15,502 nt of DNA. Origin: Candidatus Omnitrophota bacterium. GTDB taxonomy: Bacteria > Omnitrophota > Gorgyraeia > Duberdicusellales > 4484-171. The position numbers and the translations under genes are program-made. Position 1 is the stretch's first letter, and every line of letters begins with the position of its first letter. Positions 443-15,502 of the stretch are shown here, one piece after another. The DNA lies in NCBI GenBank assembly GCA_023227945.1, contig JALOCC010000048.1, forward strand, positions 1 through 15,502, written 5' to 3'. The notes beneath the pieces are model-generated. The model saw only the letters and a list, made by a program, of their open reading frames with translations. It searched no databases and had not been told where the DNA came from.

Positions 443-685
443 ATGAAGAAAATTTTTATAGCTGTAATACTATCGGTATTTTTAGTATTTAATTTGTATG
501 CTGTCGATATCGATATTCCGCAGGTACTTAAAGATCTGGGATTTAAAAGCGAAGATTTGGTCGATTATAATACAGAGGACAACGAAGAATATTTTACATT
601 AGCAAATTGGCAGACAGAAGATCCTGCTGATACTGTAACTTTCGTATTAGTTGATGGTGAAATTATAGATTGGATAAGCAGGTAA
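443..685 (+). CDS. Small secreted acidic protein of unknown function
   Basis: An 80-residue protein with no family I recognise. Residues 1-20 look like a Sec signal peptide: Met-Lys-Lys, a hydrophobic core (about residues 4-16) and an LYA site, with cleavage likely after Ala20. The roughly 60-residue mature part is rich in Asp and Glu (for example SEDLVDYNTEDNEEYF) and has no cysteine, so disulfides are not expected. A strong Shine-Dalgarno (AGGAGG, 431-436) supports ATG 443. It lies upstream of trxA in the same direction, but trxA has its own candidate promoter. Its reality is supported by the signal peptide and ribosome site rather than by homology. Confidence 0.72.
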   Translation: MKKIFIAVILSVFLVFNLYAVDIDIPQVLKDLGFKSEDLVDYNTEDNEEYFTLANWQTEDPADTVTFVLVDGEIIDWISR

Positions 686-745
686 AGTTAAGAAACCAAA
701 TATAAAAAATCGAGCATCAATAATTGTAAATTCCGGTCTTTTCTC

Positions 746-773
746 TTGACCCGGAGAAAAAAATTCATATAAT
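746..773 (+). promoter_or_regulatory. Sigma70-type promoter for trxA
   Basis: TTGACC (746-751) and TATAAT (768-773) are separated by 16 bp. Transcription would begin near 780, giving a leader of roughly 38 nt that ends in the AAAGGAG (807-813) ribosome site of trxA. Confidence 0.65.
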
Positions 774-817
774 ATAAACGCAACACAAAATAAAATTTAT
801 AAAAAGAAAGGAGTATT

Positions 818-1135
818 ATGGAAGTAAAACTAACTAGTCATAACTTCGACAAAGAAGTCATTAAATCTAATGTCGCTGTGCTTGTTGATTTTTGGGCGCC
901 ATGGTGCGGCCCATGCCAGATGATTGCTCCTTTCATTGAAGAAGTTGCAAAAGAATATCACGGAAAAATAAAAATATGCAAGTTAAATGTCGATGAAGCC
1001 TCAGATGTTGCTACGTCATTTACGGTGATGAGCATACCAACTTTGCTTCTTTTTAAAGATGGCAAAGTTATGTCCAAAAAGGTCGGTACGCTAAACAAGA
1101 GAGAGCTAGAAAAATTTATTCAACCGTATATTTAG
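818..1135 (+). CDS. trxA: Thioredoxin
   Basis: A cytoplasmic protein-disulfide reductase that passes electrons from thioredoxin reductase to target proteins. The 105-residue length is normal for a single-domain thioredoxin. The active site reads WCGPC, with the redox cysteines at 30 and 33. The buried acid Asp24 precedes it in VDFWAPWC, and the cis-proline loop IPT (Pro74) and the FKDGK turn follow. Other cysteine: Cys54. ATG 818 is supported by AAAGGAG four bases upstream and by alignment with the usual N-terminus. It has a candidate promoter of its own. No thioredoxin reductase gene is visible nearby. Confidence is high because all family hallmarks are present. Confidence 0.98.
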   Translation: MEVKLTSHNFDKEVIKSNVAVLVDFWAPWCGPCQMIAPFIEEVAKEYHGKIKICKLNVDEASDVATSFTVMSIPTLLLFKDGKVMSKKVGTLNKRELEKFIQPYI

Positions 1136-1201
1136 CTCCGATGCACCGGTTTAGCATACCGAAGGCAAGAGGTTATTGTCAGTAAATTTTCTAAAAAATC
1201 A

Positions 1202-1229
1202 TTGATATTATAATATATTAACGTATAAT
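1202..1229 (+). promoter_or_regulatory. Candidate sigma70 promoter
   Basis: TTGATA (1202-1207) and TATAAT (1224-1229) are separated by 16 bp. The predicted start near 1236 leaves almost no leader before AGGAGGTGA (1237-1245), so the site may drive a very short 5' UTR. It could also be an AT-rich coincidence. Confidence 0.45.
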
Positions 1230-1248
1230 TACTTTTAGGAGGTGAGTT

Positions 1249-1635
1249 ATGCGTTCTAGAGGTTTTTTAGTTATTTTCCTTATTTCTGTTTTTCTTTTTT
1301 CATCCGGTACTTATGTGTTTGCTGGAAATGTATCTCCTGCTAAAAGGGGACTTGAGGGGCAGTTAACTCAGGCAAGAAAAGATTTTACATTAAAACGTGA
1401 TAAATTGCATGACCAGATTAGGGTGATGCGGATTGCTTGGCATAACGAAAGAGCCGCCCTCTATGCTCAAGCCAAGCAGAGTCCTAAGGATAAAACCATC
1501 AAAGCAGCATTAAATGAAGGCGCCAAAAAGTATTTCGCCGACAGAAAAGACGTCTATAATCAGCTTGTAGAATTACGTAAGAACTGGCTTAATGCTAGAA
1601 AAGATTTAGGCCGTAAAATAAAACAAGCAAAGTAA
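1249..1635 (+). CDS. Secreted basic helical protein, unknown function
   Basis: A 128-residue protein with a signal peptide at residues 1-25 (Arg-rich start, hydrophobic core, VFA just before the likely cleavage site). The mature part of about 103 residues is rich in Lys, Arg, Ala and Gln, with few helix breakers, and reads as long amphipathic or coiled-coil helices (for example QLVELRKNWLNARKDLGRKI). This general look resembles small periplasmic helical proteins such as CpxP/Spy-type chaperones, but I see no LTxxQ motif, so no family is assigned. ATG 1249 has an excellent Shine-Dalgarno, AGGAGGTGA (1237-1245). The next gene starts 71 bp downstream in the same direction, so the two may be co-transcribed. 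Confidence 0.75.
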   Translation: MRSRGFLVIFLISVFLFSSGTYVFAGNVSPAKRGLEGQLTQARKDFTLKRDKLHDQIRVMRIAWHNERAALYAQAKQSPKDKTIKAALNEGAKKYFADRKDVYNQLVELRKNWLNARKDLGRKIKQAK

Positions 1636-1643
1636 AATACCTT

Positions 1644-1686
1644 AACGGATTAGGCTTATGGTTATGTATTCCATAAGTTTTCCGTT
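1644..1686 (+). promoter_or_regulatory. Two-part hairpin just upstream of the membrane protein gene
   Basis: An inner stem CTTATGG (1655-1661) / CCATAAG (1671-1677) is enclosed by an outer stem AACGGA (1644-1649) / TCCGTT (1681-1686), with an asymmetric internal loop between them. No poly-T tail follows. It sits between two co-directional genes and ends about 8 bp before the AAAGGAGGTG ribosome site. It could modulate translation, processing or mRNA decay. Confidence 0.5.
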
Positions 1687-1706
1687 TGCTGAAAAAGGAG
1701 GTGTGC

Positions 1707-2396
1707 ATGGATTTACAGATAGTATATCTAGAACCGGCTAAAGTGATACTTGCGAAAATAAGCAGTATTTTTGTAAGCCTTGCCGCGGTTGTGCTAGTTC
1801 TTCTTGTAGGCTGGATTATCGCAAAAATCGTCAAAAGCATACTTGCGAAGGCGCTCAAGGCAATAAAAGTAGATGAACTTGCAGAAAAGATTAATTTGAA
1901 TAATCTTCTGCTTAAGGGCGGTATCAACATAGCTGCTTCAGAGTTGATAGCCATGATAGGTTATTGGATTATTATATTTGTCGCTCTTTTTGTAGCTGCT
2001 GATGCGGCAGGATTGAAACAGGCAGCAAGTTTGTTGGATAAAGTTATTTTATACGTACCTAATATTGTCGCAGCGATATTTGTTTTACTTCTTGGAATGT
2101 TTGCCGCAACGATTCTAAGCAGTGTGGTTAAAACTGCTTCAGCAAATGCCGGAGTAGAACAAGGCTCGCTTTTTGGAAGAATAGTGCAGATTACGATAAT
2201 AGCTTTTGCCGTTGCTATTGCCCTTGAACAGCTTAAGATTGCTACTTTAACAATTCATTCAACCGTAAGCATAATCATAGCGGTAATTCTTGGTTCTTTG
2301 GGTCTAGGCATCGCACTTGCATTTGGCTTGGGCTGTAAGGATTTGGTCGCCAAATACGTTGAAGATTTTATCGATAAAGTAAAAAGTAAAAAATAA
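1707..2396 (+). CDS. MscS-like multi-pass membrane protein (conserved TM-helix family)
   Basis: A probable inner-membrane protein of 229 residues. Hydrophobic segments lie at about 19-42, 76-98, 113-140, 158-175 and 186-208. The last, glycine-rich helix ends in ALAFGLGCKDLVAKYVEDF, which resembles the pore helix and following FGLGG(K/R)D turn of MscS-related proteins and of the conserved TM-helix family. The beta domain and cytoplasmic cage that follow the pore helix in true MscS are absent, since the protein stops soon after that helix, so channel activity is an inference. I start at ATG 1707 because AAAGGAGGTG (1694-1703) sits just before it. A TTG seven codons upstream (1686) would place the ribosome site inside the gene. 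A strong terminator follows 20 bp after the stop. Confidence 0.85.
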   Translation: MDLQIVYLEPAKVILAKISSIFVSLAAVVLVLLVGWIIAKIVKSILAKALKAIKVDELAEKINLNNLLLKGGINIAASELIAMIGYWIIIFVALFVAADAAGLKQAASLLDKVILYVPNIVAAIFVLLLGMFAATILSSVVKTASANAGVEQGSLFGRIVQITIIAFAVAIALEQLKIATLTIHSTVSIIIAVILGSLGLGIALAFGLGCKDLVAKYVEDFIDKVKSKK

Positions 2397-2416
2397 CTAT
2401 CTCAAGAAAGCTAACA

Positions 2417-2472
2417 GACCCCAGCGCAATTAGGGGCTTAATGGTGCTTAATTGCGCTGGGGTCGTTTTTTT
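2417..2472 (+). terminator. Strong intrinsic terminator
   Basis: A perfect 16-bp GC-rich stem, 2417-2432 (GACCCCAGCGCAATTA) with 2449-2464, has a 16-nt loop and is followed by seven Ts (2466-2472). It lies 20 bp after the membrane protein stop codon and separates the trxA block from the tRNA/ribosomal block. Confidence 0.95.
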
Positions 2473-2521
2473 AAAAATATATATATATTTTTCTTGACAA
2501 ATATATCTTTTATAATATAAT
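2473..2521 (+). promoter_or_regulatory. Consensus sigma70 promoter with AT-rich UP-like element, for the tRNA/ribosomal cluster
   Basis: Perfect -35 TTGACA (2494-2499) and perfect -10 TATAAT (2516-2521), spaced by 16 bp. Directly upstream lies a 20-bp perfect AT palindrome (2473-2492: five A, alternating TA, five T), placed and composed like an UP element. The start would be near 2528. It is the best promoter in the window and probably drives tRNA-Thr and the downstream cluster. Confidence 0.88.
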
Positions 2522-2533
2522 CTTAAAATCTTG

Positions 2534-2581
2534 TGCCGAGACGATTCTTCGGCAAAATTCCCTTAATAAACCTAAGGGAAT
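2534..2581 (+). promoter_or_regulatory. Two leader hairpins immediately before tRNA-Thr
   Basis: Stem 1 pairs TGCCGA (2534-2539) with TCGGCA (2549-2554). Stem 2 is a perfect 9-bp stem, ATTCCCTTA (2557-2565) with TAAGGGAAT (2573-2581), whose last base directly abuts tRNA base 1 at 2582. The second stem may stack on the acceptor stem and affect RNase P or endonuclease processing of the 5' leader. Confidence 0.6.
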
Positions 2582-2654
2582 GCCCATGTAGCTCAGTTGG
2601 TAGAGCGTATCCTTGGTAAGGATAAGGTCACCGGTTCGATTCCGGTCGTGGGCT
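2582..2654 (+). tRNA. tRNA-Thr (anticodon GGT)
   Basis: The cloverleaf folds fully. The acceptor GCCCATG pairs with CGTGGGC (one G-T pair). The D-arm is GCTCAGTTGGTAGAGC, the anticodon stem TATCC/GGATA has loop TTGGTAA, and the T-arm is ACCGG-TTCGATT-CCGGT. Anticodon GGT reads ACC and ACT threonine codons. The discriminator base is T and CCA is not encoded, so CCA must be added after transcription. In many bacteria this tRNA directly precedes tuf; here rpmG follows 86 bp later. Confidence 0.97.
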
Positions 2655-2700
2655 AAGCGAACAATCAAATAAATAATTTAACTACAAAGTAGAACGGGGA

Positions 2701-2725
2701 TTTTTTAATCTTTTTTACCTTTTTT
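2701..2725 (+). promoter_or_regulatory. Three phased T6 tracts before rpmG
   Basis: Runs of six T occur at 2701-2706, 2711-2716 and 2720-2725, spaced 10 and 9 bp. As DNA this spacing can produce intrinsic curvature. As RNA it gives a U-rich leader 15 nt before the rpmG start, which lacks a Shine-Dalgarno. No GC-rich stem precedes it, so I do not call a terminator. Confidence 0.45.
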
Positions 2726-2740
2726 AGCCTGTAAACTGCT

Positions 2741-2893
2741 ATGAGAGAACTAATCGCCCTGGAATGTACAAGTTGCAAGCGCAACAATTATTACATCACT
2801 AAAAACAAAAGAAAACACCCAGAGAAACTTAACATAAGTAAGTTTTGCCGTTTTTGTCGCAAGCATACGGAACACAAAGAGACAAAAGCTTAG
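2741..2893 (+). CDS. rpmG: 50S ribosomal protein L33 (zinc-ribbon form)
   Basis: A 50-residue protein of the large ribosomal subunit, near the E site. It begins [12 protein letters not shown], and the L33 signature continues with [17 protein letters not shown] and [11 protein letters not shown]. Cysteines 9, 12, 36 and 39 form two CxxC pairs, so this is the zinc-binding C+ paralogue rather than the cysteine-free form. ATG 2741 is the only workable start because an in-frame TAA lies at 2732-2734. No Shine-Dalgarno is visible; the leader is U-rich instead. It sits between tRNA-Thr and tRNA-Trp, a context seen in many bacteria where rpmG precedes secE-nusG. Confidence 0.95.
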
Positions 2894-2894
2894 A

Positions 2895-2932
2895 CGCGAA
2901 TATTCGCGAATCTAACGCGAATATTCGCGAAT
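2895..2932 (-). repeat. Phased heptamer array A (CGCGAAT x4)
   Basis: Four identical copies of CGCGAAT start at 2895, 2905, 2916 and 2926 (spacing 10, 11, 10), beginning one base after the rpmG stop. The unit is a 21-bp tandem repeat. Each pair also forms a perfect 14-bp palindrome, CGCGAATATTCGCG (2895-2908, 2916-2929). Confidence 0.9.
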
Positions 2933-2989
2933 CGTAAAATTGTTTTCATCTAGTTCATTGAGATTTGAGATTAATTTATGATGCTCCAA

Positions 2990-3027
2990 ATTCGCGAAAA
3001 TTAGCGTTTGATTTGCGTGAATTCGCG
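2990..3027 (+). repeat. Phased heptamer array B (ATTCGCG-like x4)
   Basis: Words ATTCGCG, ATTAGCG, ATTTGCG and ATTCGCG start at 2990, 3000, 3011 and 3021, again spaced 10, 11, 10. The orientation is opposite to array A, so the two form an inverted pair 57 bp apart. The array ends five bases before tRNA-Trp. Confidence 0.82.
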
Positions 3028-3032
3028 TTTAA

Positions 3033-3106
3033 AGGCGAGTAGCTCAATTGGCTAGAGCATCGGTCTCCAAAACCGGGGGTTGCAGGTTCAACTCCTGCCT
3101 CGCCTG
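3033..3106 (+). tRNA. tRNA-Trp (anticodon CCA)
   Basis: The acceptor AGGCGAG pairs perfectly with CTCGCCT. The D-arm is GCTCAATTGGCTAGAGC, the anticodon stem TCGGT/ACCGG has loop CTCCAAA (anticodon CCA), and the T-arm is GCAGG-TTCAACT-CCTGC. The discriminator is G, as expected for bacterial tRNA-Trp. The 3' CCA is not encoded. Its last 18 bases are repeated 125 bp downstream. Placement before secE-nusG is a widespread bacterial arrangement. Confidence 0.97.
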
Positions 3107-3338
3107 CTTTAAGCTAGCCTGAAAGCTAAGCTTGCAGAAGAGGATGAGGTGGCAGTTTGGTGTCAAACGTTGGATGTGTTTGAAGAAGCTTCGACTTCGT
3201 CGAAGAACACATACAACTCCTGCCTCGCCTGCTTTAAGCTAGCCTGAAAGCTAAGCTTGCAGAAGAGGATGAGGTGGCAGTTTGGTGTCAAACGTTGGAT
3301 GTGTTTGAAGAAGTTTTGATTTTACCGAAGAGCATATG
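3089..3338. repeat. 125-bp direct repeat that includes the tRNA-Trp 3' end
   Basis: Copy 1 is 3089-3213 and copy 2 is 3214-3338. The first 100 bp match exactly (3089-3188 and 3214-3313); the last 25 bp diverge. Each copy starts with 18 bp of the tRNA T-arm and acceptor 3' strand. Copy 1 ends in a hairpin, CTTCGAC (3189-3195) / GTCGAAG (3199-3205), flanked by TGTGTT/AACACA. Copy 2 has lost this pairing through mutation. Confidence 0.93.
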
Positions 3339-3456
3339 CAGTTATAAGCGTATACCCGCTTAAGACTATCCGCTAACGGTAGAAACAATTCCTTGTTTGA
3401 TCAAATAGGAGAGATCGCCCCATTTGTGACGATAAAAAGCCCCATTTTTAAAAAAT
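3107..3456. other. 350-bp gene-free spacer between tRNA-Trp and secE
   Basis: It holds the direct repeat above and, after it, about 120 bp with a small hairpin TAAGCG (3345-3350) / CGCTTA (3357-3362). I see no ORF with a ribosome site, no second tRNA, no convincing terminator and no good promoter. It is the longest non-coding gap in the ribosomal block. Confidence 0.6.
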
Positions 3457-3654
3457 ATGTTTAGTAAGTTTAAAAAAATTCCTCAATTTTTTAGAGAAAT
3501 AAGAGAAGAGCTTAAAAAAGTAAATTGGTCCAGTAAAGCTGAATTAAAAGGTGCTGTGATTGTGGTAATTTGCGTGCTTGCGTTTCTTACTATATATATA
3601 GCACTCCTGGATTTAGGCTTATCTAAATTAATGCATTCGTTATTACAAGGATGA
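3457..3654 (+). CDS. secE: Preprotein translocase subunit SecE
   Basis: The small subunit that clamps the SecY channel in the inner membrane. It has 65 residues and the short single-helix form: an amphipathic N-terminal part (FFREIREELKKVNW), then one membrane segment at about residues 31-52. The usual signature KKVxWP is present except that serine replaces the proline after Trp24 (VNWSSKAEL). ATG 3457 has no clear Shine-Dalgarno; an AT-rich stretch precedes it. The stop TGA (3652-3654) overlaps the start of nusG, so translation is probably coupled. The secE-nusG pair is a strong contextual confirmation. Confidence 0.95.
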   Translation: MFSKFKKIPQFFREIREELKKVNWSSKAELKGAVIVVICVLAFLTIYIALLDLGLSKLMHSLLQG

Positions 3655-4178
3655 TGCGCTGGTATATATTACATACTTTAAGTGGTGCCGAAGAAAAGGC
3701 CAAGATAAATCTGGAAGCGAGGATTAAGGCTCATAAATACGAGTCTTTAATCGCTAATGTTATTATTCCAAAAGAACAGGTTACCGAAGTAAAGCTCGGC
3801 AAGAAAAAAATTCTGGAAAGAAAATTTTTCCCCGGGTATATTTTGGTAGAAATGGAAATGAATGACGATACCTGGCTTTTTGTAAAAAACACGCCAGGCA
3901 TTACTACTTTTATCGGGCCGAGGCGCAAGCCTAGCCCCATACCACAAGAAGAAGTTGATAAAATTTTAGCCAAAGCTAAGGAAAGTAAAGAAAAACCTGC
4001 CCCAAAGGTTACTTTTGAGAAAGGCGAAAGTATAAGAGTAATCGAAGGAGCTTTTCTTAATTTTAACGGTGTGGTTGAAGAGATTCAGCAGGATAAAGGT
4101 AAAATAAAGGTAAATGTTTCGATTTTCGGAAGAACTACTCCGGTTGAACTTGAATTTTGGCAGGTAGAGAAGATATAG
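3651..4178 (+). CDS. nusG: Transcription elongation/antitermination factor NusG
   Basis: NusG binds the RNA polymerase clamp through its N-terminal domain and S10 or Rho through its C-terminal KOW domain. The protein is 175 residues. The NGN domain starts RWYILHTLSGAEEKAK and includes the KKKILERKFFPGYILVEM and NTPGITTFIGP segments. A charged linker (about 108-121) leads to the KOW domain (FEKGESIRVIEGAFLNFNGVVEEI, ending VELEFWQVEKI). Two adjacent ATGs (3651, 3654) compete. The first overlaps the secE stop as ATGA; the second is better spaced from AAGG (3647-3650). They differ by one residue. The rplK gene follows after a 108-bp spacer filled with repeats. Confidence 0.97.
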   Translation: MMRWYILHTLSGAEEKAKINLEARIKAHKYESLIANVIIPKEQVTEVKLGKKKILERKFFPGYILVEMEMNDDTWLFVKNTPGITTFIGPRRKPSPIPQEEVDKILAKAKESKEKPAPKVTFEKGESIRVIEGAFLNFNGVVEEIQQDKGKIKVNVSIFGRTTPVELEFWQVEKI

Positions 4179-4180
4179 AC

Positions 4181-4224
4181 CGCAGATGATCACAGACGGG
4201 AAGAAGACGCAGATGATCACAGAT
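4181..4224 (-). repeat. Phased heptamer array C (CRCAGAT x4)
   Basis: Words CGCAGAT (4181), CACAGAC (4191), CGCAGAT (4208) and CACAGAT (4218) begin two bases after the nusG stop. Spacing is 10 within each pair and 17 between pairs. Together with array D it can fold into a hairpin. Confidence 0.85.
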
Positions 4225-4230
4225 GATTTT

Positions 4231-4269
4231 ATCTGCGATCATCTGTTTTTCAATCTGCGATCATTTGTG
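4231..4269 (+). repeat. Phased heptamer array D (ATCTGYG x4), hairpin with array C
   Basis: Words ATCTGCG (4231), ATCTGTT (4241), ATCTGCG (4253) and ATTTGTG (4263) are spaced 10, 12, 10. The stretch 4210-4224 pairs with 4231-4245 (14 of 15 bases) around the loop GATTTT. The array ends two bases before the rplK ribosome site AAGGAG (4271-4276). Confidence 0.85.
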
Positions 4270-4286
4270 TAAGGAGCGAAGCGACT

Positions 4287-4721
4287 ATGGCGAAGAAAAA
4301 GAAAAAACCAGTAAACCAAATAAAATTACAAATTTCTGCAGGAGCAGCTAATCCAGCGCCTCCGGTAGGCCCTGCTTTAGGCCAGCACGGTTTAAACATA
4401 ATGCAATTCTGCAAGGCTTTTAACGAAGCCACAAAAACCAAAGAAGGTATAATTCTACCTGTAGTCATAAATGTTTACGAAGACAAATCTTTCGATTTTA
4501 TTATTAAAACTCCCCCTGCTTCCGTACTTCTTAAGCGTGCTGCTAATTTGGCAAAAGCTAGCGGCCAGGTAGGTAAGGAAATCATTGGCGAAGTTACCAA
4601 GCAGCAGGTATTAGAAATAGCCAAAGAAAAATTAGCAGATTTAAATACCAACGACTTGAACCAGGCAGTTAAGATTATTGCCGGTACTGCCAGGAGTTGC
4701 GGCATAAAAGTAAAAGAATAA
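4287..4721 (+). CDS. rplK: 50S ribosomal protein L11
   Basis: L11 forms the stalk base with 23S rRNA and works with EF-G, EF-Tu and the stringent factor. The 144 residues are close to the usual 141, with three extra lysines at the start. The N-terminal domain carries the proline-rich helix [17 protein letters not shown], where thiostrepton-type antibiotics bind. The C-terminal rRNA-binding domain includes [12 protein letters not shown] and ends in [16 protein letters not shown] 4287 follows AAGGAG (4271-4276) at ten bases. In many bacteria L1 represses rplK-rplA by binding the leader; here the leader is an inverted pair of heptamer arrays. Confidence 0.98.
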
Positions 4722-4759
4722 GAGAGAATATATTATCTAGGTAACTAAAAAGGCATAAC

Positions 4760-5443
4760 ATGAAAAAGAAAAGTAAAAGATATCAAGAGGCAGCGAAGTT
4801 GGTCGATAAGGCTAAAGTGTATTCAATAGAAGAGGCTGTTAGTATTTTGAAGAATATGCCTCATGCAAAATATGATGAAACATTAGAAGTAAGCTGCCAG
4901 GTAGGAATTGACCCAAAGCAGACAGACCAAGCTGTGAGAGGCTCGGTAGTACTTCCTCACGGAACAGGGAAGCAGGTAAAAGTTATTGTATTCTGTGAAC
5001 CGGAAAAAGAAGCAGAAGCAAAAGAGGCAGGCGCAGATTTTATAGGTTCACAGGAGTTGGCGGATAAAATCAATAAAGAAGGATGGTTTGAGTTCGATTG
5101 CTGTATATCTACCCCATCTATGATGAAGGTTGTAAGCAAACTGGGAAAGGTTCTTGGGCCGCGCGGGCTTATGCCTTCACCAAAAACAGGCACGGTTACC
5201 GATAATGTTTCTTATGCGATAAAAGAAGCAAAAAGAGGAAAAATAGATTTCCGTATGGATAAAGCATCGTGTATCCATGTAGGCCTTGGTAAGATTTCTT
5301 TTTCAAAGGAACAATTAGCAGAAAATGTGCATGCATTTATGGATGCGTTAAATAGCGCGAGGCCAGCTTCAATTAAAGGGGAATTCATAAAATCACTATC
5401 TCTATCAACTACCATCAGCCCTTCAGTGAGGTTAAACGCATGA
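4760..5443 (+). CDS. rplA: 50S ribosomal protein L1
   Basis: L1 forms the mobile stalk near the E site and often represses its own operon. At 227 residues it is near the family length. Domain I is split around an inserted domain II. The signature reads LGKVLGPRGLMPSPKTGTVTDNV, with Ser where Asn is usual (MPNPKTGTV). RGKIDFRMDKASCIHVGLGKISF and the C-terminal helix ENVHAFMDAL follow. The start at 4760 has a modest AAAGG site (4749-4753). The gene ends in an ATGA overlap with rplJ (5440-5443), so the next gene is probably translated by coupling. Confidence 0.98.
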   Translation: MKKKSKRYQEAAKLVDKAKVYSIEEAVSILKNMPHAKYDETLEVSCQVGIDPKQTDQAVRGSVVLPHGTGKQVKVIVFCEPEKEAEAKEAGADFIGSQELADKINKEGWFEFDCCISTPSMMKVVSKLGKVLGPRGLMPSPKTGTVTDNVSYAIKEAKRGKIDFRMDKASCIHVGLGKISFSKEQLAENVHAFMDALNSARPASIKGEFIKSLSLSTTISPSVRLNA

Positions 5444-5976
5444 AACATATAGGTACAATAGTAAGAGAAAAAATCGTTGACGAGATAAAAGAAAGCGTGC
5501 AGCAATCCGAAGGCTGTTTTTTTGTTAATTTTAATAAAGTAAAAGCCCGATCTATAAGCCAATTAAGAAATAATCTAAGGACAACAAAGGCTAAAGTTTA
5601 TGTAGCAAAGAATTCTTTGTTTTCTAAAGCATTCGATACGAATCGTGACAATGTAGCTAATTTTATAAACGGAGAAACTGCTGTTATCTTCGTTTACGAT
5701 AAAGATATAGTTAGAGCAGCTAAAGCGTTAGTTGATTTTGCAAAAGAAAATGAAATCATTCGAGTAAAAGGCGGCCTGCTTAAGGATAAAGCGGTAAGTG
5801 CCCAGGATTTAAATTCTTTGGCAAAATTGCCGCCCAAGGAAGTGCTTTTAGGCATGGCTGTAAGCGGCCTCGCATCTCCCATTACTGGTTTTGTTTCTAC
5901 ATTAAATCAGGTTATATTAAAATTTGTATGGGTAGTTGAGGAAATAAAAAAGAATAAAGAAACCAATAAGAAGTAG
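5440..5976 (+). CDS. rplJ: 50S ribosomal protein L10
   Basis: L10 (P0) anchors the L7/L12 dimers to the ribosomal stalk. It is 178 residues, slightly longer than the E. coli protein (165). The N-terminal rRNA-binding part includes VREKIVDEIKESVQQSEGCFFVNF, KARSISQLRNNLR and KVYVAKNSLF. VKGGLLKDKAVSAQDLNSLAKLP and the LASPITGFVSTLNQV segment lead into the C-terminal helix where L7/L12 dimers bind. The start overlaps rplA by 4 bp and has GAGG (5428-5431) inside rplA, so there is no separate L10 leader. The lysine-rich end (KKNKETNKK) is next to the rplL ribosome site. Confidence 0.97.
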   Translation: MKHIGTIVREKIVDEIKESVQQSEGCFFVNFNKVKARSISQLRNNLRTTKAKVYVAKNSLFSKAFDTNRDNVANFINGETAVIFVYDKDIVRAAKALVDFAKENEIIRVKGGLLKDKAVSAQDLNSLAKLPPKEVLLGMAVSGLASPITGFVSTLNQVILKFVWVVEEIKKNKETNKK

Positions 5977-5985
5977 GAGGTTAAT

Positions 5986-6363
5986 ATGGCTAAGGTAGAG
6001 GATGTTTTAAAGATGGTAGAGGAGATGACAGTGCTGGAGCTTTCCGAGTTGGTAAAGGCGTGTGAAGAAAAGTTCGGCGTAAAAGCAAGTGCGCCTATGA
6101 TGGCTGCAATGCCTGGAGTAGCAGCGGCTGCCGCCGAAGAAAAAGAAGAAAAAACAACCTTCACTGTTGTGCTTAGCGGTACCGGCGCAAATAAAATAGC
6201 TGTCATTAAAGAAATACGAGCAATTACCGAACTTGGCCTTAAAGAGGCAAAAGAGCTTGTAGATTCTGCTCCAAAAACAGTTAAGGAAAATATCACTAAA
6301 GAAGAAGCAGAAGAAATTAAAAAGAAACTGGAAGCCGCAGGCGCAACCGTAGAATTAAAGTAA
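5986..6363 (+). CDS. rplL: 50S ribosomal protein L7/L12
   Basis: The multi-copy stalk protein that recruits and activates translational GTPases. It has 125 residues in the standard order: a dimerisation domain ([29 protein letters not shown]), a flexible Ala-rich hinge (about 34-54, including [14 protein letters not shown]), and a C-terminal domain with [34 protein letters not shown]. The start has a strong AGGAGG (5975-5980) that overlaps the rplJ stop; the two genes are 9 bp apart. A strong ribosome site fits the higher synthesis needed for a protein present in four to six copies per ribosome. Confidence 0.98.
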
Positions 6364-6379
6364 ATTAAGCATAAATAGC

Positions 6380-6426
6380 CACGAATTTATTCGTGTAAAT
6401 TCGTTTCAAATTCGTGGGAATTCGTG
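6380..6426 (+). repeat. Phased heptamer array E (ATTCGTG x4)
   Basis: Words ATTCGTG (6389), ATTCGTT (6399), ATTCGTG (6410) and ATTCGTG (6420) are spaced 10, 11, 10, preceded by one inverted copy CACGAAT (6380-6386). The array fills the rplL-rpoB gap and ends five bases before AAGGAGGG of rpoB. In E. coli this gap holds an attenuator and an RNase III site; neither is evident here. Confidence 0.88.
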
Positions 6427-6445
6427 TATCAAGGAGGGTATTAGC

Positions 6446-9400
6446 TTGAAAGGAATAAAAGAATTATCTTTTGCTAAAACCAAAAAGAATTACCCGATGC
6501 CTCATTTTCTTGAGCATCAAACTAATTCCTTTAAAGAGTTTTTGCAAATGAACATTCTCCCGGAAAAAAGGAAAAAAGTAGGTTTACAGGAAATACTTGA
6601 AGAGGTATTTCCTATGGAAAGTCCGGATAAGCAATACCGCCTGGACTTTGTTTCTTACAGTCTTTCTCGCCCACGCTATAGCGTTGAAGAATGTAAAAAA
6701 CGTGCGCAAACTTACGCCGCACCTTTAAGGGTAAGGCTGCGCCTCACCAGCCCGGCAGCAGAAGTTAAAGAGCAGGAAATTTATTTAGGCGATGTCCCCC
6801 TGATGACAGAAACCGCCTCGTTTATAATTAATGGTGACGAAAGGGCAATAGTAAGCCAGTTGCAGCGTTCTCCCGGCGTATTTTTTGAAGAAGAGCTTCA
6901 TCCAATGGGCAAGCGTATGTATTTTGCCCGCATCATACCCTATAGAGGTTATTGGATAGAGTTTAGGACGGATATAAATGATACTATCACAGTAATTATC
7001 GACCGCCGCAAAACTTTTCCTGCCACGCAGATTTTAAGAATAATGGGCCTTTCCAATAACGAGGATATTTATAAAAATTTTTCCGATAAACCATACCCCG
7101 AAGTTGTAAATACAGTAAAAAAAGATTCTACAATCAGCACAGAAGAAGCATACCTTGATTTTTACAAAAAGATGCGTCCGACTGAGCCTATTACCTTGGA
7201 AGCGGCAAAAGAAGTTTTTAAAAGAATGTTTCTTGACCCGCGTAGATATGATTTAGGTAAGGTAGGCAGGTATCTTTTGAACAAAAAACTGGGAATGGAT
7301 ATTCCTTTGAGTAAAAGAGTAATAGATTTAGAAACACTGGTTGAGATTATCAAAAATCTTCTTAAGGTAAAAGCGGGTGCGCGGCCTACTGATGACATAG
7401 ATCATCTTGCAAACAGGCGTATAAAATTAATAGGAGAACTCCTGCAGCACCAAATAAGGGTTGGTTTACTTCGGGTAGAAAGGACTTTCCTTGATAGGTA
7501 TCCGCTTATTGCTTCAAGTGATTTTTCAATTCAACATCTTATAAATTCAAGAGCATTTTCTGCCCAAATACAGGATTTTTTTGCACGTTCGCCGCTTTCG
7601 CAATTCATGGATCAAACTAATCCGCTTGCAGAAATTACTCATAAGAGAAGGTTGTCTGCAATGGGTCCTGGTGGGCTTTCCCGTGAACGTGCAGGGTTTG
7701 AGGTAAGAGATGTCCATCCAACGCATTACGGAAAAATTTGTCCGATTGAAACTCCGGAAGGTGCCAATATAGGCTTACTTTCGTCGCTTACTACCTACGT
7801 CAGGATAAATCCGCTGGGATTTCTTACAACTGCTTACAGAAAGGTTGAAAAAGGTGTTGTGTTGGATAAGGTTGAATATTTAGCGGGAGATGAGGATGAA
7901 AATCGTTTAATCGCCCAGGTGTCACATAATTTAGATGAAGACGGAAAGATAAAAGATAAAGAAATTTATTCGCGATATAAAGGAAAATTTCCTAAGGTAA
8001 AACCTCATGATGTTGAATATATGGATATTTCTCCGCAGCAGATAGTTTCTGTGTCTGCGGTTTTAATACCATTCCTGGAACATGACGATGCAAACAGGGC
8101 TTTGATGGGTTCAAACATGCAAAGACAAGCTGTGCCTCTTCTTTTTCCAGAAGAGCCGCTCGTTTCAACGGGCGCTGAACGCAAAGTTGCGCGTGACAGC
8201 GGCGTGGTTGTTATGAATAAGGAAGAAGGCACGGTTGATGAAGTAGATGCACACCATATAAAAATAGGCAATTTCGTCTATAAGCTTAAAAAATTCGAAC
8301 GCTCAAATGCAGATACTTGCGTAAATCAACGGCCCTTAGTTGTAAGGGGAGAAAAAGCTAAGGTTGGCGAAACTATTGCTGACGGTATGGGAACCAGGCA
8401 TGGCGAACTTGCTTTGGGCAGAAATTTGCTGGTTGCTTTTATGCCATGGAGAGGTTACAACTTTGAAGATGCAATTATAATAAACGAACGGCTGTTAAAA
8501 GATGATGTGCTAACTTCCGTTCATGTTGAAAAATTTGAAGTTGAAGCGCGGGAAACGCGCCTTGGGAATGAAGAAGTGACCAGGGATATTCCTAATGTAA
8601 GCGAAGAGGTATTGAAGAATCTTGATGAAAATGGCGTAGTGCGCCTTGGCGCAGAAGTTATGCCGGATGATATTTTAGTAGGACGTGTTACTCCTAAAAC
8701 AGAAAAAGAGCTTTCTCCGGAAGAAAGGCTCTTACGCGCTATATTCGGAGAGAAAGCTGCAGACGTTAAGGATACGTCTCTCAGGGTTCCACCCGGAGTT
8801 TACGGCGTAGTTATCAATGTTGAAGTATTTCAGAGAAAAGACAGGGGCCGCCGTTCCAAAAAAGAAAAAACAGAGGAATTAAAAAGAATCCGTGAGATAG
8901 AGAAATATTACGAAGAAGAAAAAGAACTACTTTCCCGGGAAAAGATGAGGCGGCTAAGCGCTATACTCGGTAAAAGCGAAGGAAGAATAGATTCTGACGA
9001 TATAGACGCAAGCGAAGAAGCAAAAGCCATGGTAAATATTTATGATGAGCGTTTGCAAGAGCTAGCCATGGAAAGGGAACTTGAAAGCGCAAAGATAAAG
9101 AAGGGCGATGAACTTCCTACTGGTGTATTAAAAAGAGTTGTCGTGTTTGTAGCGATGAAGAGAAAGGTTTCTGCCGGAGATAAGCTTTCCGGCCGGCACG
9201 GCAACAAGGGTGTTATCTCAAAAATATTGCCGGAAGAAGACATGCCGTTTCTTGAGGATGGTACGTCTGTTGATTTGATTTTAAATCCCCTGGGTGTTCC
9301 TTCCAGAATGAATGTCGGACAGCTCTTAGAAATGCATCTTGGCTGGGCAGCTAAAAAGCTTGGCATAAAAGTAATTACGCCTGTCTTTGAAGGGGCAAGA

Positions 9401-9865
9401 GAAGAAGATACCAAGAATTTACTAAGGCAGGCAGGAATTCCTGAGGATGGAAAAGTAACCATTTATGACGGCCACACCGGAAAAGCTTTTGCTAATAAAA
9501 TAAGTGTCGGCTGCATGTTTATTATGAAACTTGTACACATGGTTGATGATAAAATCCACGCGCGCGCAATAGGGCCATACTCTTTGATTACTCAGCAGCC
9601 GCTCGGAGGAAAAGCGCAGTTCGGCGGCCAGCGTTTTGGAGAAATGGAAGTCTGGGCGCTTGAAGCCTACGGCGCGGCATTTACCCTTCAGGAAATGCTT
9701 ACGGTAAAAAGTGACGATGTGGAAGGAAGGACGAGAATTTATGAGGCAATAGTAAGAGGAGAGCAGAAATTTCAGCCTTCAGTCCCTGAGTCGTTTAATG
9801 TTTTAGTCAAAGAGCTACAAGGATTGTGTCTGGATATAAGGCCAGAAAAGGAGTCTCATAAATGA
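6446..9865 (+). CDS. rpoB: DNA-directed RNA polymerase subunit beta
   Basis: The beta subunit forms one side of the polymerase active-site cleft. At 1139 residues it is of the compact type without the large E. coli insertions. The rifampicin region reads [26 protein letters not shown] at about 385-410. The contact residues matching E. coli Q513, D516, H526, R529 and S531 are all present (Q386, D389, H399, R402, S404), while position 533 is Met406. Active-site lysines K913 and K921 lie in [13 protein letters not shown]. The C-terminus has [19 protein letters not shown]. The start is TTG 6446, supported by AGGAGGG (6432-6438) and by the conserved N-terminus; the next ATG would remove 17 residues. 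It overlaps rpoC by 4 bp. Confidence 0.98.
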
Positions 9866-12800
9866 TTGAAGATAGTACATTCTTTGATCAAATAACTATT
9901 CGACTTGCATCTAACCAGATAATCAGAAGCTGGTCTTCAGGAGAAGTGAAAAAGGCCGAAACCCTTAATTACCGCACCCTAAAGCCGGAAAAAGACGGGC
10001 TTTTTTGCGAAAAAATTTTCGGGCCTGCCAAAGATTGGGAGTGCCACTGCGGAAAGCTTAAAGGCATAAAATTTAAAGGCACAAAATGCGACCGTTGCGG
10101 GGTTGAGGTATTGCATTCATCAGTACGCAGGCAGCGCATGGGCCATATTGACCTGGCAGCTCCGGTAACGCACATCTGGTTTTTTAAGATTATACCTTCG
10201 CGCATAGGCTCAATGCTTGACCTCTCCGCAAAGGAACTTGAAAAAGTAATTTACTACGAGGAATACATTGTTATAGACCCGGGCAGCACCACACTCAAGA
10301 AGATGCAGCTTCTTAACGAAGAAGAATATCAGAAAGCTTTACAGGAATTCGGCCAAAATTTTACCGTAAAAATAGGAGCCGAAGCAATAAGAGAGTTATT
10401 AAAGGAATTGGATTTAGATAAACTCAGTAAAAGTACTCGCCGTGAGATAGAAAACGCAAAAAGTGCCTTGAATAAACGTTTGTTGAAAAGGCTTAAAATA
10501 ATGGAAGATTTTCGCCGTTCAGGCAACAAGCCTGAGTGGATGGTTTTAGAATCCGTTCCGGTTATACCGCCTGATTTACGCCCCTTAGTCCCTCTTGAGG
10601 GCGGAAGATTCGCCTCTTCGGATTTAAACGACCTTTACCGGCGCGTGATTAACAGAAATAACCGTCTTAAGAAATTAATTTCTCTAGGTGCTCCTGACAT
10701 AATCATAAAAAATGAAAAGCGAATGCTTCAGGAAGCAGTTGACGCTCTCATAGAAAACGGCAGGCATGGAAGGCCGGTTACAGGGCCGCAGAACAGGCCA
10801 TTAAAAAGCCTTTCGGATATGCTTAAGGGCAAACAAGGCCGTTTCAGGCAAAACCTTCTTGGCAAGCGAGTAGATTATTCAGGCCGCAGCGTAATCGTAG
10901 TAGGGCCTGATTTAAAACTTCATCAATGCGGAATACCTAAGCAGATGGCTCTTGAGCTTTTTGAGCCTTTTATAATAAAGAAATTAAGAGAAAGAGGTTT
11001 TGTTCATACTATTAAGGGGGCGCGCAGGATGGTTGAAAGAGCGCGTGTTGAGGTGTGGGATATACTCGAAGAAGTAATAGACGGCCATCCGGTATTGCTT
11101 AACCGTGCTCCAACGCTTCATCGTTTAAGCGTCCAGGCTTTTTATCCCATGCTTGTAGAAGGCAAGGCAATAAAATTACATCCGCTTGTTTGTGCTGCTT
11201 TTAACGCAGATTTTGACGGAGACCAGATGGCAGTACACGTTCCTTTGTCAATTGAAGCACAGGCAGAAGCAAGGCTTGCCATGCTTTCGGTAAATAATAT
11301 TTTTTCACCTGCAGACGGCAGGCCGGTTATTACTCCAACACAGGATACAATCATTGGAAGCCGCTATCTTACTTTGGATAAAGATAAAGGGATAGGAGAA
11401 GGAACGGTATTTTCTTGTGCTGATGAGGCAATAACTGCTTATCAGGATGAAGAAGTTGAGCTGCATGCAAAGATTAAGATACGCATAGAAGAACAGGGCC
11501 AGAAAAAAATCGTAGAGACAACAATAGGAAGAATAATCTTTAACCAAGTTTTGCCGAAAGGCTTTAGGTTTGTGAATGAGCCTCTCAGCAAAAAGAGCGT
11601 TTCGGAAATCATCAGCGAATGCTACAAAATATTTGGCCATGGTGCAGCGGTTGAGTTGCTGGATAAAATAAAAGATTTGGGTTTTGAATACGCTACTTAC
11701 GGCGGAATAAGCATTTCTATCGAGGACCTGCAGACGCCTCCTCAGAAAACCGAGTGCATTAACGAAGCGAATGAAGACGTTGCAAAAGTTGAAGATCAAT
11801 ACAAAAAAGGCGTCATTACGGAAAGAGAACGCCACAATAAAATCATCGATATCTGGACTAGAACAAATGACCACGTATCAGACCTTGTGTTTAAGAGCAT
11901 GGACAAATTTAATCCTATATTTATGATGGCAGATAGCGGTGCCCGTGGTTCGCGTGTTCAGATAAGGCAGCTGGCCGGAATGCGTGGCCTTATGGCAAAG
12001 CCATCCGGAGAAATTATTGAAACGCCGATTATTTCAAATTTTAGGGAAGGTTTAACTGTTCTTGAATATTTTATTTCAACTCACGGCGCAAGAAAAGGTT
12101 TGGCTGATACGGCATTAAAGACAGCTGACGCCGGTTATTTAACCCGGCGGCTTGTTGATGTTGCCCAGGAAGTTATAATCATCGAGGAAGATTGCGGCAC
12201 CGTAAACGGTATAACAGTTTCGGAAATTGTAGAAGGTGACGAAGTTGTTGTTCCTTTAAAGGAGAGAATAGTAGGCCGCGTTGCACTTGACAGCATCGTA
12301 GATGTGGTTAGCGATGAAGCAATCGTTAAAGCTGGAGAAGAAATTACCGAAGAAAAAGCAGATAAGATAGAACGCCTGGGCTTAGAGAAGATTCGTATAA
12401 GAAGCGTTCTTACTTGTGAGTCCGAAAGAGGAGCTTGTATTAAGTGTTACGGAAGGAATTTAGCATCAGGCAAGCTTATCGAAATAGGTGAGGCAGTTGG
12501 CGTAATTGCAGCTCAGTCAATAGGTGAACCTGGAACACAGCTTACAATGAGAACGTTTCATATCGGTGGAACTGCTTCGCGTGTTGCCGAACGTGCATTC
12601 ATTAAGGCAAAAGAAAAAGGCACGGTAAAATACCACGGTTTAAAGGTGGTAGTTAAAGGCAAAAATTTTATAGTACTTAATAGAAACGGTATGGTAAGTG
12701 TAAATGATGAGCGCGGTATAGAATTGCAAAGAAATCCCGTACCTCAGGGTTCATTGGTTCTTGTAGAGGATGGTGTTGCGGTTGAAAAAGACAAAATTTT

Positions 12801-13839
12801 CGTCAGATGGGACCCATATTCATCGCCGATTTTGACTGAAGTCAAAGGAAAAGTAAAATACGAAGATCTTATAGATAAGATAACTATACAGGAAGAAATG
12901 AATGTTGCAACGGGCAGAAAAGAGAGAGTTGTCGTTGAGTTTAAAGGGGAATACCACCCTCAGCTTTTGATTATGTCTGATGACGACAAAAAGGAAGTTT
13001 CGGGAATTTATCCGCTTCCTTCCGGTGCACACATAATGGTTGGCGAAGGTGATACAGTTGAGGCGGGAGACGTTATCGCCAAGACTCCAAGGTTGGTTGC
13101 TAAAACAAGGGATATTACCGGAGGCCTTCCCCGTGTTGCCGAACTTTTCGAAGCGCGCAGGCCAAAGAACCCGGCAATAATTAGCGAAATCGACGGCTTT
13201 GTGGAATTTAAAGAAGAAAAGGGCGAGCGAAAAATAATCGTACGCAGTCCAACCGGAATGAAAAGGGACTATTCAATTCCTCTTGGCAGTCATCCAATAG
13301 TTTATAGAGGCGACCAGGTTTCCGCCGGGCAACAGTTAACTGAAGGGCCTACGGTTTTGCAGGATATTTTAAGGGTTTGCGGAGATAAAGTATTGCAGGA
13401 ATATTTAGTTAATCAGATTCAGGAAGTTTATAGGTTGCAAGGTGTTAGAATAAACGATAAACACATTGAGGTTGTAATCAGGGAAATGCTTAAAAAAGTA
13501 AGGATAGTTGAATCCGGAGACACTGAATTTTTACCCGGCGAAGCTATTGATAAATGGGATTTTCGTAATGAGAACGAAAGAGTAGTTAAGAAAGGAGGAA
13601 AACCCGCAACAGCCTCACCTTTACTTTTAGGAATTACAAAAGCATCTCTCAGCACAAAGAGCTTTATTTCTGCGGCAAGCTTTCAGGAAACAACACGAGT
13701 CCTGACAGATGCTGCCACATCCGGTAAGGTCGATGATTTGCAGGGTTTAAAGGAAAATGTAATCGTAGGCCATCTTATCCCTGCGGGAACAGGTTTAAAG
13801 ATGTATAGAGAAATTGAGGTGGAAAAATGCCAACAATAA
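9862..13839 (+). CDS. rpoC: DNA-directed RNA polymerase subunit beta'
   Basis: The beta' subunit carries the catalytic magnesium site. It is 1325 residues. The N-terminal zinc site is C61, C63, C76 and C79. The [36 protein letters not shown] segment is followed by the catalytic loop [12 protein letters not shown], with D450, D452 and D454 binding magnesium. The second zinc site is C778, C852, C859 and C862. The bridge helix and trigger loop region ([38 protein letters not shown]) has no large insertion. It ends with the conserved [19 protein letters not shown] and [13 protein letters not shown] 9862 follows AAAAGGAG (9846-9853) and overlaps the rpoB stop as ATGA. Its last codons overlap rpsL by 13 bp. 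Confidence 0.98.
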
Positions 13840-14201
13840 CACAATTATTAAGAAAACCGCGTATACCTAAAAAAAGAAGAAGTAAGTCACCTGCCCTTCA
13901 ACAGGCTCCGCAGAGAAGAGGGGTTTGCATACAAGTAAGGACGATGACTCCCAAAAAACCCAACTCAGCTTTACGTAAAATTGCAAGGGTTAGGCTTACC
14001 AATAGTAATGAAGTAACAGCTTACATTCCTGGTGAGGGCCATAACCTGCAGGAACATTCCATAGTTTTAGTAAGAGGCGGCAGGGTAAAAGATCTTCCCG
14101 GTGTAAGATACCACATAGTAAGAGGCACGCTTGATTGTCAGGGAGTTGCTAATAGAAAGCGTTCGCGTTCAAAATACGGAGCAAAGAGGCCGAAGCAGTA
14201 A
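13827..14201 (+). CDS. rpsL: 30S ribosomal protein S12
   Basis: S12 sits at the decoding centre and controls translational accuracy. It has 124 residues. The signature [19 protein letters not shown] carries the lysine that matches E. coli K42, so no streptomycin-resistance change is seen. The second accuracy loop, [22 protein letters not shown], includes the aspartate that is methylthiolated in many bacteria. The start ATG 13827 lies inside the end of rpoC (13-bp overlap) and has GAGGTGG (13816-13822) four bases upstream. This fuses the rpoBC and str clusters with no room for a promoter or terminator between them. A 73-bp spacer with heptamer repeats precedes rpsG. Confidence 0.98.
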
Positions 14202-14225
14202 TAAAAATGCAATATAGAAGCAGAT

Positions 14226-14254
14226 ATCCGCGTCAATATCCGCGGTAATCCGCG
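14226..14254 (+). repeat. Heptamer array F (ATCCGCG x3)
   Basis: Three identical ATCCGCG words start at 14226, 14238 and 14248 (spacing 12, 10) in the rpsL-rpsG gap, ending eight bases before AAGGAGAGG of rpsG. It is shorter and less regular than the other arrays. Confidence 0.75.
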
Positions 14255-14274
14255 TCTATAAATAAGGAGAGGAA

Positions 14275-14742
14275 ATGAGAAGAAGAAAAGCGCCTAAAAG
14301 ACAAATTCAGGTTGATCCAAAATATAAGTCAACCGTCGTTGGCCAGCTTATTAATATAATAATGCAGGATGGTAAAAAAACCAAGGCGCAGGGTATGGTT
14401 TATGGAGCGTTGGATTTAATCGGCGAAAAAATGAAAGAGGATTCCCTGAAAGTATTTTTCGCGGCACTAGAAAATGCCCGCCCACGCTTAGAAGTGCGCC
14501 CGAGGCGAATTGGCGGAGCAACATACCAGGTTCCTATGGAAGTCACTCAAGAACGTGGAATTTCTACAGCTCTACGTTGGCTACGTGATTGCGCCCGCAG
14601 CAAAAAAGGCAGATCAATGGAAAATAAAATAGCCGATGAAGTTCTTTCTGCCTTCAAGAATGAAGGTTCGGTAATCAAGAAGAAAGAAGATATGCACAAG
14701 ATGGCAGAAGCTAACAAGGCATTTGCTCATTTTAAATGGTAA
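14275..14742 (+). CDS. rpsG: 30S ribosomal protein S7
   Basis: S7 nucleates assembly of the 30S head and lies near the E site; in E. coli it represses the str operon. It has 155 residues, typical of the family. The N-terminus [19 protein letters not shown] is basic and binds 16S rRNA. The signature [25 protein letters not shown] is followed by [34 protein letters not shown] and the C-terminal [18 protein letters not shown] 14275 is preceded by AAGGAGAGG (14263-14271). The rpsL-rpsG gap is 73 bp and contains heptamer repeats where the E. coli S7 operator would lie. fusA follows after another 73 bp. Confidence 0.98.
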
Positions 14743-14744
14743 AT

Positions 14745-14782
14745 CACAGATGATCACAGATACAAAACAGATGATCGCAGAT
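14745..14782 (-). repeat. Phased heptamer array G (CACAGAT-like x4)
   Basis: Words CACAGAT (14745), CACAGAT (14755), AACAGAT (14766) and CGCAGAT (14776) are spaced 10, 11, 10, beginning two bases after the rpsG stop. It shares its word with arrays C and D. It also contains two in-frame ATGs upstream of fusA. Confidence 0.88.
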
Positions 14783-14815
14783 AAAGGCTTTATTAAGAAT
14801 TCAGGTAAGAAGGAT

Positions 14816-15502
14816 ATGAAAGAGAATTTAAGTACAATCAGAAATATTGGAATAGTGGCGCATATTGATGCCGGCAAGACTACAACTACCGAACGGATTC
14901 TCTTTTACGCCGGAAAGATTTATAAAATCGGTGAGGTTGACGAAGGAACAACTACAACCGACTGGATGGTACAGGAACGTGAGCGCGGAATTACCATAAC
15001 CAGTGCGGCTACCTATTGCAACTGGAATAATTACCATATAAATATTATTGATACTCCCGGCCATATTGATTTTACGGTCGAAGTTGAGCGTTCACTTAAA
15101 GTGTTGGATGGGGTTGTAGTTATTTTTTGCGGGGTTGGCGGAGTTGAACCTCAGAGTGAAACTGTATGGCACCAGGCTGATAAATATCATGTCGCAAGAA
15201 TTGCCTTTATAAACAAATTAGACAGAAGCGGCGCAGATTTTTTTAGCGTACTTTCCGAGATGGATTCGAAATTAGCCACCTTAAACGTTCCTGTACAGCT
15301 TCCGATATATGACAGCGATGAATTTGCGGGAGTGATTGATTTGATAAAAAATAAAGCGGCATATTTCGAAGGAGCCTCCGGAGAAAAAGTAGCCTACAAA
15401 GAGATTCCGGAAGATTATAAAGTTTCAGCTGCTAAATATAGAGATAACCTTATAGAAAAACTGGCAGAGCTGGATGATGAGTTTATGCAAAAGGTAATTT
15501 CC
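14816..15502 (+). CDS. fusA: Elongation factor G (partial, 3' end outside window)
   Basis: EF-G is the GTPase that drives translocation on the ribosome. Only the first 229 codons, about one third of the usual length near 690, lie in the window. The G domain is clear: P-loop [13 protein letters not shown] (15-27), switch I region with [33 protein letters not shown] and [10 protein letters not shown]. The base-specificity motif is NKLD, where NKMD is commoner. [15 protein letters not shown] is typical of EF-G rather than EF-Tu or LepA. I choose ATG 14816 (after AAGAAGG) because it places nine residues before [11 protein letters not shown], as usual. In-frame ATGs at 14750 and 14771 would add a tail encoded by repeat array G. 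Confidence 0.96.

Follow-up and report, generated by a model that had tools for sequence, protein, structure and literature searches.

What kind of element sets a 7-bp word, repeated about once per helical turn, into one spacer after another of a ribosomal and RNA polymerase operon? The question is raised by a contig of a Candidatus Omnitrophota bacterium (JALOCC010000048.1), of which positions 1 to 15,502, the whole stretch of DNA analysed here, are called the window. Between rpmG and fusA the window holds seven arrays of words of the form ATYYGYG, named A to G. They probably belong to a family of small elements built around GxxExxY genes, A/B and C/D as gene-less pairs and E, F and G as single arms, and would stand to the gene-bearing members as REPIN-like partners.

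Arrays in the operon spacers

The arrays occupy five gaps, namely rpmG-tRNA-Trp, nusG-rplK, rplL-rpoB, rpsL-rpsG and rpsG-fusA (gene names were assigned by reading, and most agree with the tblastn gene order in relatives):

2895..2932, minus strand: array A, four ATTCGCG words spaced 10-11-10; the left arm of the inverted A/B pair, beginning 1 nt past the rpmG stop codon
2990..3027, plus strand: array B, ATTCGCG, ATTAGCG, ATTTGCG and ATTCGCG; right arm of the A/B pair, its end 5 nt short of tRNA-Trp
2895..3027, no strand assigned: the A/B gene-less element, arms outward, with 57 bp between them
4181..4224, minus strand: array C, ATCTGCG/ATCTGTG words at 4181, 4208 and 4218; left arm, beginning 2 nt past the nusG stop codon
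4231..4269, plus strand: array D, words at 4231, 4253 and 4263 (two ATCTGCG and one ATTTGTG); right arm of C/D, ending upstream of rplK
6380..6426, no strand assigned: array E, one minus-strand word (6380), then four plus-strand words spaced 10-11-10 (6389-6426); ATTCGTG, the second ATTCGTT; rplL-rpoB gap
14226..14254, plus strand: array F, three ATCCGCG words at 14226, 14238 and 14248 (spacing 12 and 10); rpsL-rpsG gap, solo
14745..14782, minus strand: array G, ATCTGCG, ATCTGTT, ATCTGTG and ATCTGTG; solo, 2 nt past the rpsG stop codon

A sequence-only reading had reported seven arrays in these gaps, four of them with words exactly 10, 11 and 10 bp apart, and both statements hold. When the window is scanned for the full layout (word-3-word-4-word-3-word, the word being AT[CT][CT]G[CT]G and the cut-off at least 24 of 28 word positions), exactly four matches are found, at 2895 (-), 2990 (+), 6389 (+) and 14745 (-), which are A, B, E and G. 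No full-layout array appears in 30 dinucleotide shuffles of the window at thresholds of 24 and 25, and word-3-word pairs number 8 compared to a mean of 0.02 and a maximum of 1 in 200 shuffles. The arrays of the window are real, and a chance origin, which would have left its counts no higher than those of shuffles, is rejected.

The word itself fits A at 28/28 positions and B, E and G at 27/28 each, and the second word of E and G departs from the proposed form by the loss of its last G; the second word is weak in 4/6 arrays of one alignment. Array A can also be read as ATTCGCG on the plus strand, at 2902 and 2923. The arrays were said to lie clear of the reading frames, which is true of genes read from their start codons, whereas D, E and G fall within stop-to-stop frames upstream of the starts. 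From the upstream stop codon, A, C and G are 1-2 nt away, E 16 nt and F 24 nt. What had been overlooked is that A(-) with B(+), and C(-) with D(+), form inverted pairs whose words point outward. An Rfam scan of the window gives only two tRNAs at gathering score and so no match to a described Rfam element.

GxxExxY genes between outward arrays

GxxExxY (TIGR04256/PF13366) is a predicted PD-(D/E)XK nuclease family that is named in NCBIfam by its motif only. Its genes have the architecture that is very probably also that of the window arrays, with an outward word array, a GxxExxY open reading frame (ORF) of ~120-150 codons, and a second outward word array. The family is found in 9 of the 20 genomes of the first loci and in 16 of the 33 genomes of other loci; among genomes drawn by phylum, it is present in 20/145 of Omnitrophota (17 above the curated cut-off) and in 70/149 of Planctomycetota. 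In most cases the gene has an outward array on each side and the element keeps to a single version of the word; the versions seen include CTCTGTG, ATCCGTG, ATTCGTG, TTCCGCG, ATCTGCG, TTCAGTG and ATCNNTGTAATC, among others. Repeat distances in the flanks of 32 elements (a tally that still included the partial or interrupted locus L093) have their main peaks at 9, 10 and 21 bp and a smaller one at 12, which makes the exact 10-11-10 spacing one version of a looser rule.

The architecture can be measured by counting the six-mers that the left and right flanks share in outward orientation. The mean for an element's own flanks is 11.47 (60 elements), compared to 4.65 in the same orientation, 3.75 across genomes, 4.29 between elements of one genome and 2.90 for 160 control ORFs taken from ribosomal loci, and the own value is reached by 0/2000 permutations. 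At least eight shared six-mers are found in 45/60 GxxExxY elements as against 4/160 controls. The loci taken are best matches and not all; 60 of 77 (20 + 27 + 30) were used, and 17 partial or interrupted ones were excluded (L089, L093, L094, L097-L100, L115-L119, L123-L125, L127 and L143). Similarly, an independent Planctomycetota set of 29 new loci gives 12.03 for own flanks compared to 3.81 across, with 22/29 at eight or more. Same-orientation sharing is also raised there (7.90), so that the inverted geometry is less clean in Planctomycetota.

Seven plasmid records hold a relative of GxxExxY, and among the four examined, CTCTGTG-type words flank the gene on either side in those of Bacteroides finegoldii and Bernardetia, while the flanking words are weak in the Gemmatirosa and Treponema records. 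In Bacteroides finegoldii the gene lies between radA and a gene for a FAD-dependent protein; in a related Phocaeicola record these neighbours enclose another gene, so that it offers no empty site. No phage match for GxxExxY was found.

Invariant residues in 35 aligned GxxExxY proteins are E32, D71 and E81-x-K83, and a structure model with a predicted local distance difference test score (pLDDT) of 83.9 matches PD-(D/E)XK nucleases. By its modelled fold and its D...ExK motif, GxxExxY is a PD-(D/E)XK nuclease; a fold search of the models gave no single closest family, and two of five models are of low confidence (52.8 and 52.3). By eye, many metagenomic GxxExxY proteins in alignment A1 end in ISxNQRKSVAE-like tails, which could be a translated right-hand word array.

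In the open PMC literature, outside which subscription papers mostly lie, no description was found of these arrays or of the flanks of GxxExxY/PF13366 genes. GxxExxY is named in PMC8934634 and PMC12085832, and PF13366 in PMC9756366.

The word version follows the protein

Protein similarity and word similarity are correlated among GxxExxY elements (Mantel 0.224, 0/500 permutations, over 1628 between-genome pairs). On the tree built from 58 proteins, the word class changes 13 times for 43 classified elements, compared to a mean of 28.1 and a minimum of 25 in 300 label shuffles, which preserve the class frequencies; the classes were typed by the author after viewing the flanks. Two of the 60 elements, L082 and L104, have in-frame stops and were excluded from both analyses. 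One clade of 15 (12 CTCTG, 3 unassigned) unites Omnitrophota, Elusimicrobia, Planctomycetota and Opitutales. A word class that follows the protein tree across phyla shows that a word and its gene move together as one unit, which is needed for recognition of the word by the protein and is no proof of it.

A second, unrelated gene family provides a useful contrast. S23/four-helix-bundle genes (TIGR02436) are present in 19/20 genomes, and their flanks have the same architecture, with 12.16 shared six-mers for own flanks compared to 3.76 across and 19/25 elements at eight or more (26 of 30 loci used, L169, L172, L185 and L186 being dropped, and 25 with long enough flanks). The S23 loci (L158-L187) have a word style of their own, for example AGCTTAT, CCTTTA and TGTGAC. 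Among the words shared by both flanks, a [CT]G[CT]G core occurs in 41/58 GxxExxY elements compared to 1/25 S23 elements (Fisher 6e-9), and in the 8 genomes that yielded both families it occurs in 11/13 compared to 0/12 (p=2e-5), so genome composition is not the cause. The window words carry this core, and this is the main reason for filing the window arrays with GxxExxY and not with S23. A/B and C/D have the outward inverted geometry as well, and E, F and G are single arms only; the arms leave no room for a GxxExxY gene (57 bp in A/B, 6 bp in C/D). S23 words do not clearly track S23 protein similarity (Mantel 0.086, 60/500, N=23). The spacer upstream of a gene that we take, from its N-terminus, to be miaA is occupied by a GxxExxY element in one genome, and three other genomes have S23 elements there; the words differ (L092, L163, L168 and L182).

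The same spacers in relatives

The best 17 loci by the L1 protein of the window comprise 15 of Candidatus Omnitrophota, one of Candidatus Susulua (L009) and one labelled 'bacterium' (L002). The closest relative is L001 (L1 88%, rpmG 100% and nusG 93% identical), and L002 follows with 81% in L1. In L001, arrays are absent from nusG-rplK and rpsL-rpsG, so that C/D and F have no counterpart there; the genes are ~21 and ~12 bp apart compared to 108 and 73 bp in the window (the stretches shown, 31 and 25 nt, include the last codon, stop and start). ATCTGYG arrays stand in nusG-rplK of L003, L004 and L007, and L002 has ATTCGTG arrays after rpmG and before tRNA-Trp, where the window has ATTCGCG. The comparison of orthologous spacers that had been proposed thus finds that relatives can differ at one site in the whole set of words, and arrays appear to come and go, although presence and absence may reflect gain or loss alike.

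By eye, the L001 rplL-rpoB spacer and spacers of L009, L010 and L013 hold other phased inverted word arrays, with words such as GTAGGTT (L001), CTCATAG (L009), TAGCGTA and TTTCGGA that lack the [CT]G[CT]G core. Other repeats were also noted by eye. Window 1-240 is a tandem repeat of ~107 bp that includes TTCGCC/GGCGAA as short inverted words; a small ORF (443-685) whose start resembles a signal peptide lies downstream of it. At ~3089-3330, 3' of tRNA-Trp, a repeat contains a second copy of the tRNA 3' end (CTCCTGCCTCGCCTGC), and the rpmG-secE spacer of L004 holds repeats with a similar piece (CAACTCCTGCCTCG) in an otherwise different unit.

Gene-less arrays in other genomes

A sequence-only search model built from six gene-less arrays matches 23/145 Omnitrophota genomes, with up to 38 matches per genome; the counts are lower bounds, since filters were stricter and 46 candidates were scored per genome. 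GxxExxY is present in 10/23 array-bearing genomes compared to 10/122 others (p=1e-4, relatedness ignored). In 684 kb sampled, the strict 38-bp layout occurs in 5 arms, 4/5 of them outside ORFs of at least 100 aa, although such ORFs make up 89% of the stretches; these numbers are small, and all 5 fall in 451 kb of GxxExxY genomes, compared to 0 in 233 kb of others. Regular-expression counts of looser words over the same 684 kb were noisy and uninformative.

Many gene-less matches are arranged as minus-then-plus pairs. Arm pairs at most 40 bp apart number 39 in 60 loci and five others, and all are outward and none inward. Each arm tested matched at least 23/28 word positions, and the pairs of the window itself were not included. 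In 18 pairs kept as different, a set that counts one miniature inverted-repeat transposable element (MITE) twice (L228 and L229), the variable word positions agree between the arms at 0.80 (0.50 expected), and the linkers at 0.38 (0.38 expected). A harder collapse regardless of orientation, which removes that duplicate, leaves 9 pairs with 0.74 for words (0.51 expected) and 0.38 for linkers (0.36 expected). Word agreement is independent of word rank (0.79-0.80) and is 0.48 between elements. Agreement of the words and not of the linkers points to the trace of a protein that reads the words, and not of a base-paired stem or a copied arm.

Alternative explanations

The arrays could instead be binding sites that the host keeps in its operon spacers for a nucleoid, transcription or translation factor, with GxxExxY and S23 genes as passengers that settle between them. 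Their place in the spacers of essential operons, with three of them 1-2 nt past stop codons, is in keeping with this, as are the similar arrays around different ORF families and the array-rich genome G022, which has no GxxExxY. However, the word style is set by the enclosed ORF family even within the same genomes, the word class tracks the GxxExxY tree across phyla, and L001 does without C/D and F altogether. As such, host-kept sites are unlikely.

It is less likely still that the arrays are RNA hairpins, like the 23S rRNA intervening sequences, whose arms pair in the transcript for processing by RNase III or another factor. The RNA element of the sequence-only reading has some merit in the two pairs of the window, because A/B and C/D fold much better than shuffles (z -4.6 and -8.25; E less, at -3.3) and the C/D linkers pair too. 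Moreover, S23 genes, which are known from 23S intervening sequences, have the same architecture. As a common principle, an RNA stem or copied palindrome is disfavoured by the pooled gene-less pairs, whose linkers match at chance, whose words match whatever their rank and whose C/T mismatches are without G-U bias (13 vs 22); in addition, F and G have no partner arm, and G shows no fold (z -0.96). Element ORFs do run in the operon direction, with co-directional counts, where both neighbours agree, of 31:3 for GxxExxY and 22:0 for S23 (first sets) and 8:2 in the Planctomycetota set compared to a background of 15:6. Ordinary genes in the sampled Omnitrophota stretches are likewise co-directional (388:35; short ones 106:22), so that this orientation says little.

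That the arrays are ordinary MITEs, or the ends of other transposons that an unrelated transposase moves, is improbable as well. MITEs are similarly short, inverted, gene-less and dispersed, and in genome G141 13/20 loci look, by eye, like near-identical copies with outer inverted repeats of their own starting TTAGTTATCACTGAAAAA; these copies (L228-L239 and L244) enclose an ATTCGTG arm pair. That family is the exception, however, because elsewhere the terminal inverted repeats are not identical and the linkers differ between arms, and the remaining 7 loci of G141, like the loci of G022 and G003, have words in common but not linkers, loops or outer repeats. Finally, mutation alone, with slippage and palindrome correction homogenising words locally and no reader at all, would account for words that are uniform within an element and different between elements, but it is very improbable because the linkers would be homogenised too and, in the pooled pairs, agree at chance.

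Comparison with known systems

RAYT proteins are HUH tyrosine transposases, and here the enzyme differs: the associated family, PF13366/TIGR04256, is PD-(D/E)XK-like. The REPIN-RAYT system, in which the protein is also known as TnpA-REP (PMC3116915 and PMC8266576), is otherwise alike in having a gene between inverted repeats, many intergenic gene-less inverted pairs and a repeat type tied to the protein type. The repeats differ too, since repetitive extragenic palindromic (REP) sequences are, by the definition in PMC3733652, palindromes of 20-40 bp, mostly tagged at one end with GTAG or CGTC, while the window-type repeats are phased separate words with free linkers that, in the pooled pairs, do not match between arms. 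The logic may be called REPIN-RAYT-like by analogy, without membership of that system.

The TAACTGA repeats of Beggiatoaceae are also intergenic heptamer direct repeats that occur before ribosomal protein genes, among other places, and are patchy across distant phyla; they differ, in the passages covered of PMC4679880, by one fixed word, set apparently head to tail without linkers, with one inverted set among 170 and no small flanked gene reported. The 23S rRNA intervening sequence with an S23 ORF is likewise small and selfish, 428 nt long with a single ORF, as described in PMC4990558, but it lies inside rRNA and is excised by RNase III, and the window words have the GxxExxY style and not that of S23. 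An rRNA match was not found in the window by the Rfam scan, so the arrays cannot be counted as an S23 element of this kind.

A possible mechanism

The sequence-only reading had offered a protein-binding array on one DNA face and a spreading mini-repeat as separate options. Words shared between arms, together with gene-less copies at many loci of some genomes, favour both, and they can be joined into one reading. A reader of varying specificity, also suggested at the outset, fits best, with GxxExxY as the candidate, and the linkers, which are not homogenised, speak against simple copying as a source of local homogenisation. A GxxExxY-family protein would bind one word per helical turn along one DNA face, and two outward arms would give a symmetric protein assembly. 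The PD-(D/E)XK active site could then cut or nick at or near the array, and cleavage would lead to copying or repair through which the word stays with its element. Both the gene-bearing element and its gene-less partners would thereby be copied, moved or maintained in trans, as by RAYT with REPINs. The solo arrays E, F and G may be decayed or may have a different use.

Several observations weigh against assigning the window arrays to this family. Thirteen of the 23 array-bearing genomes show no GxxExxY, including G022 with its 22 matches; 10/20 GxxExxY genomes show no array of the window type; and no GxxExxY was found in G001, the genome of the closest relative. Several words can occur in the gene-less arrays of a single genome (G022, G003 and G159), and the match to the word of a resident GxxExxY gene is clear only in G141, where the MITE family implies that another transposase can spread such arrays. 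The C/D pair has complementary linkers as well as words. Among the gene-bearing elements, 2/60 share no six-mer from left to right and 15/58 are without an assignable word class, and the correlation of word with protein is also expected from mere joint inheritance. Furthermore, neither the orthologous spacers nor the Phocaeicola record offers a clean empty site.

On balance, the assignment of the window arrays to the GxxExxY elements is still favoured. That GxxExxY reads the words is somewhat more plausible than the contrary, and that it also moves the arrays is conceivable but doubtful. More tentative is a large class, undescribed until now, in which GxxExxY and, separately, S23 genes lie between outward arrays of a word specific to the lineage. 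In such a class, the protein would read the word as a phased multimer, cutting would change all words together, so that word and protein co-evolve, and gene-less arrays would be read in trans.

Significance

The favoured reading would provide a first testable role for GxxExxY proteins and would explain a type of intergenic repeat for which no name was found. Protein clades and their DNA words would form a natural table from which recognition could be worked out. Moreover, two unrelated small gene families that share one architecture with different word styles suggest a general principle of element design.

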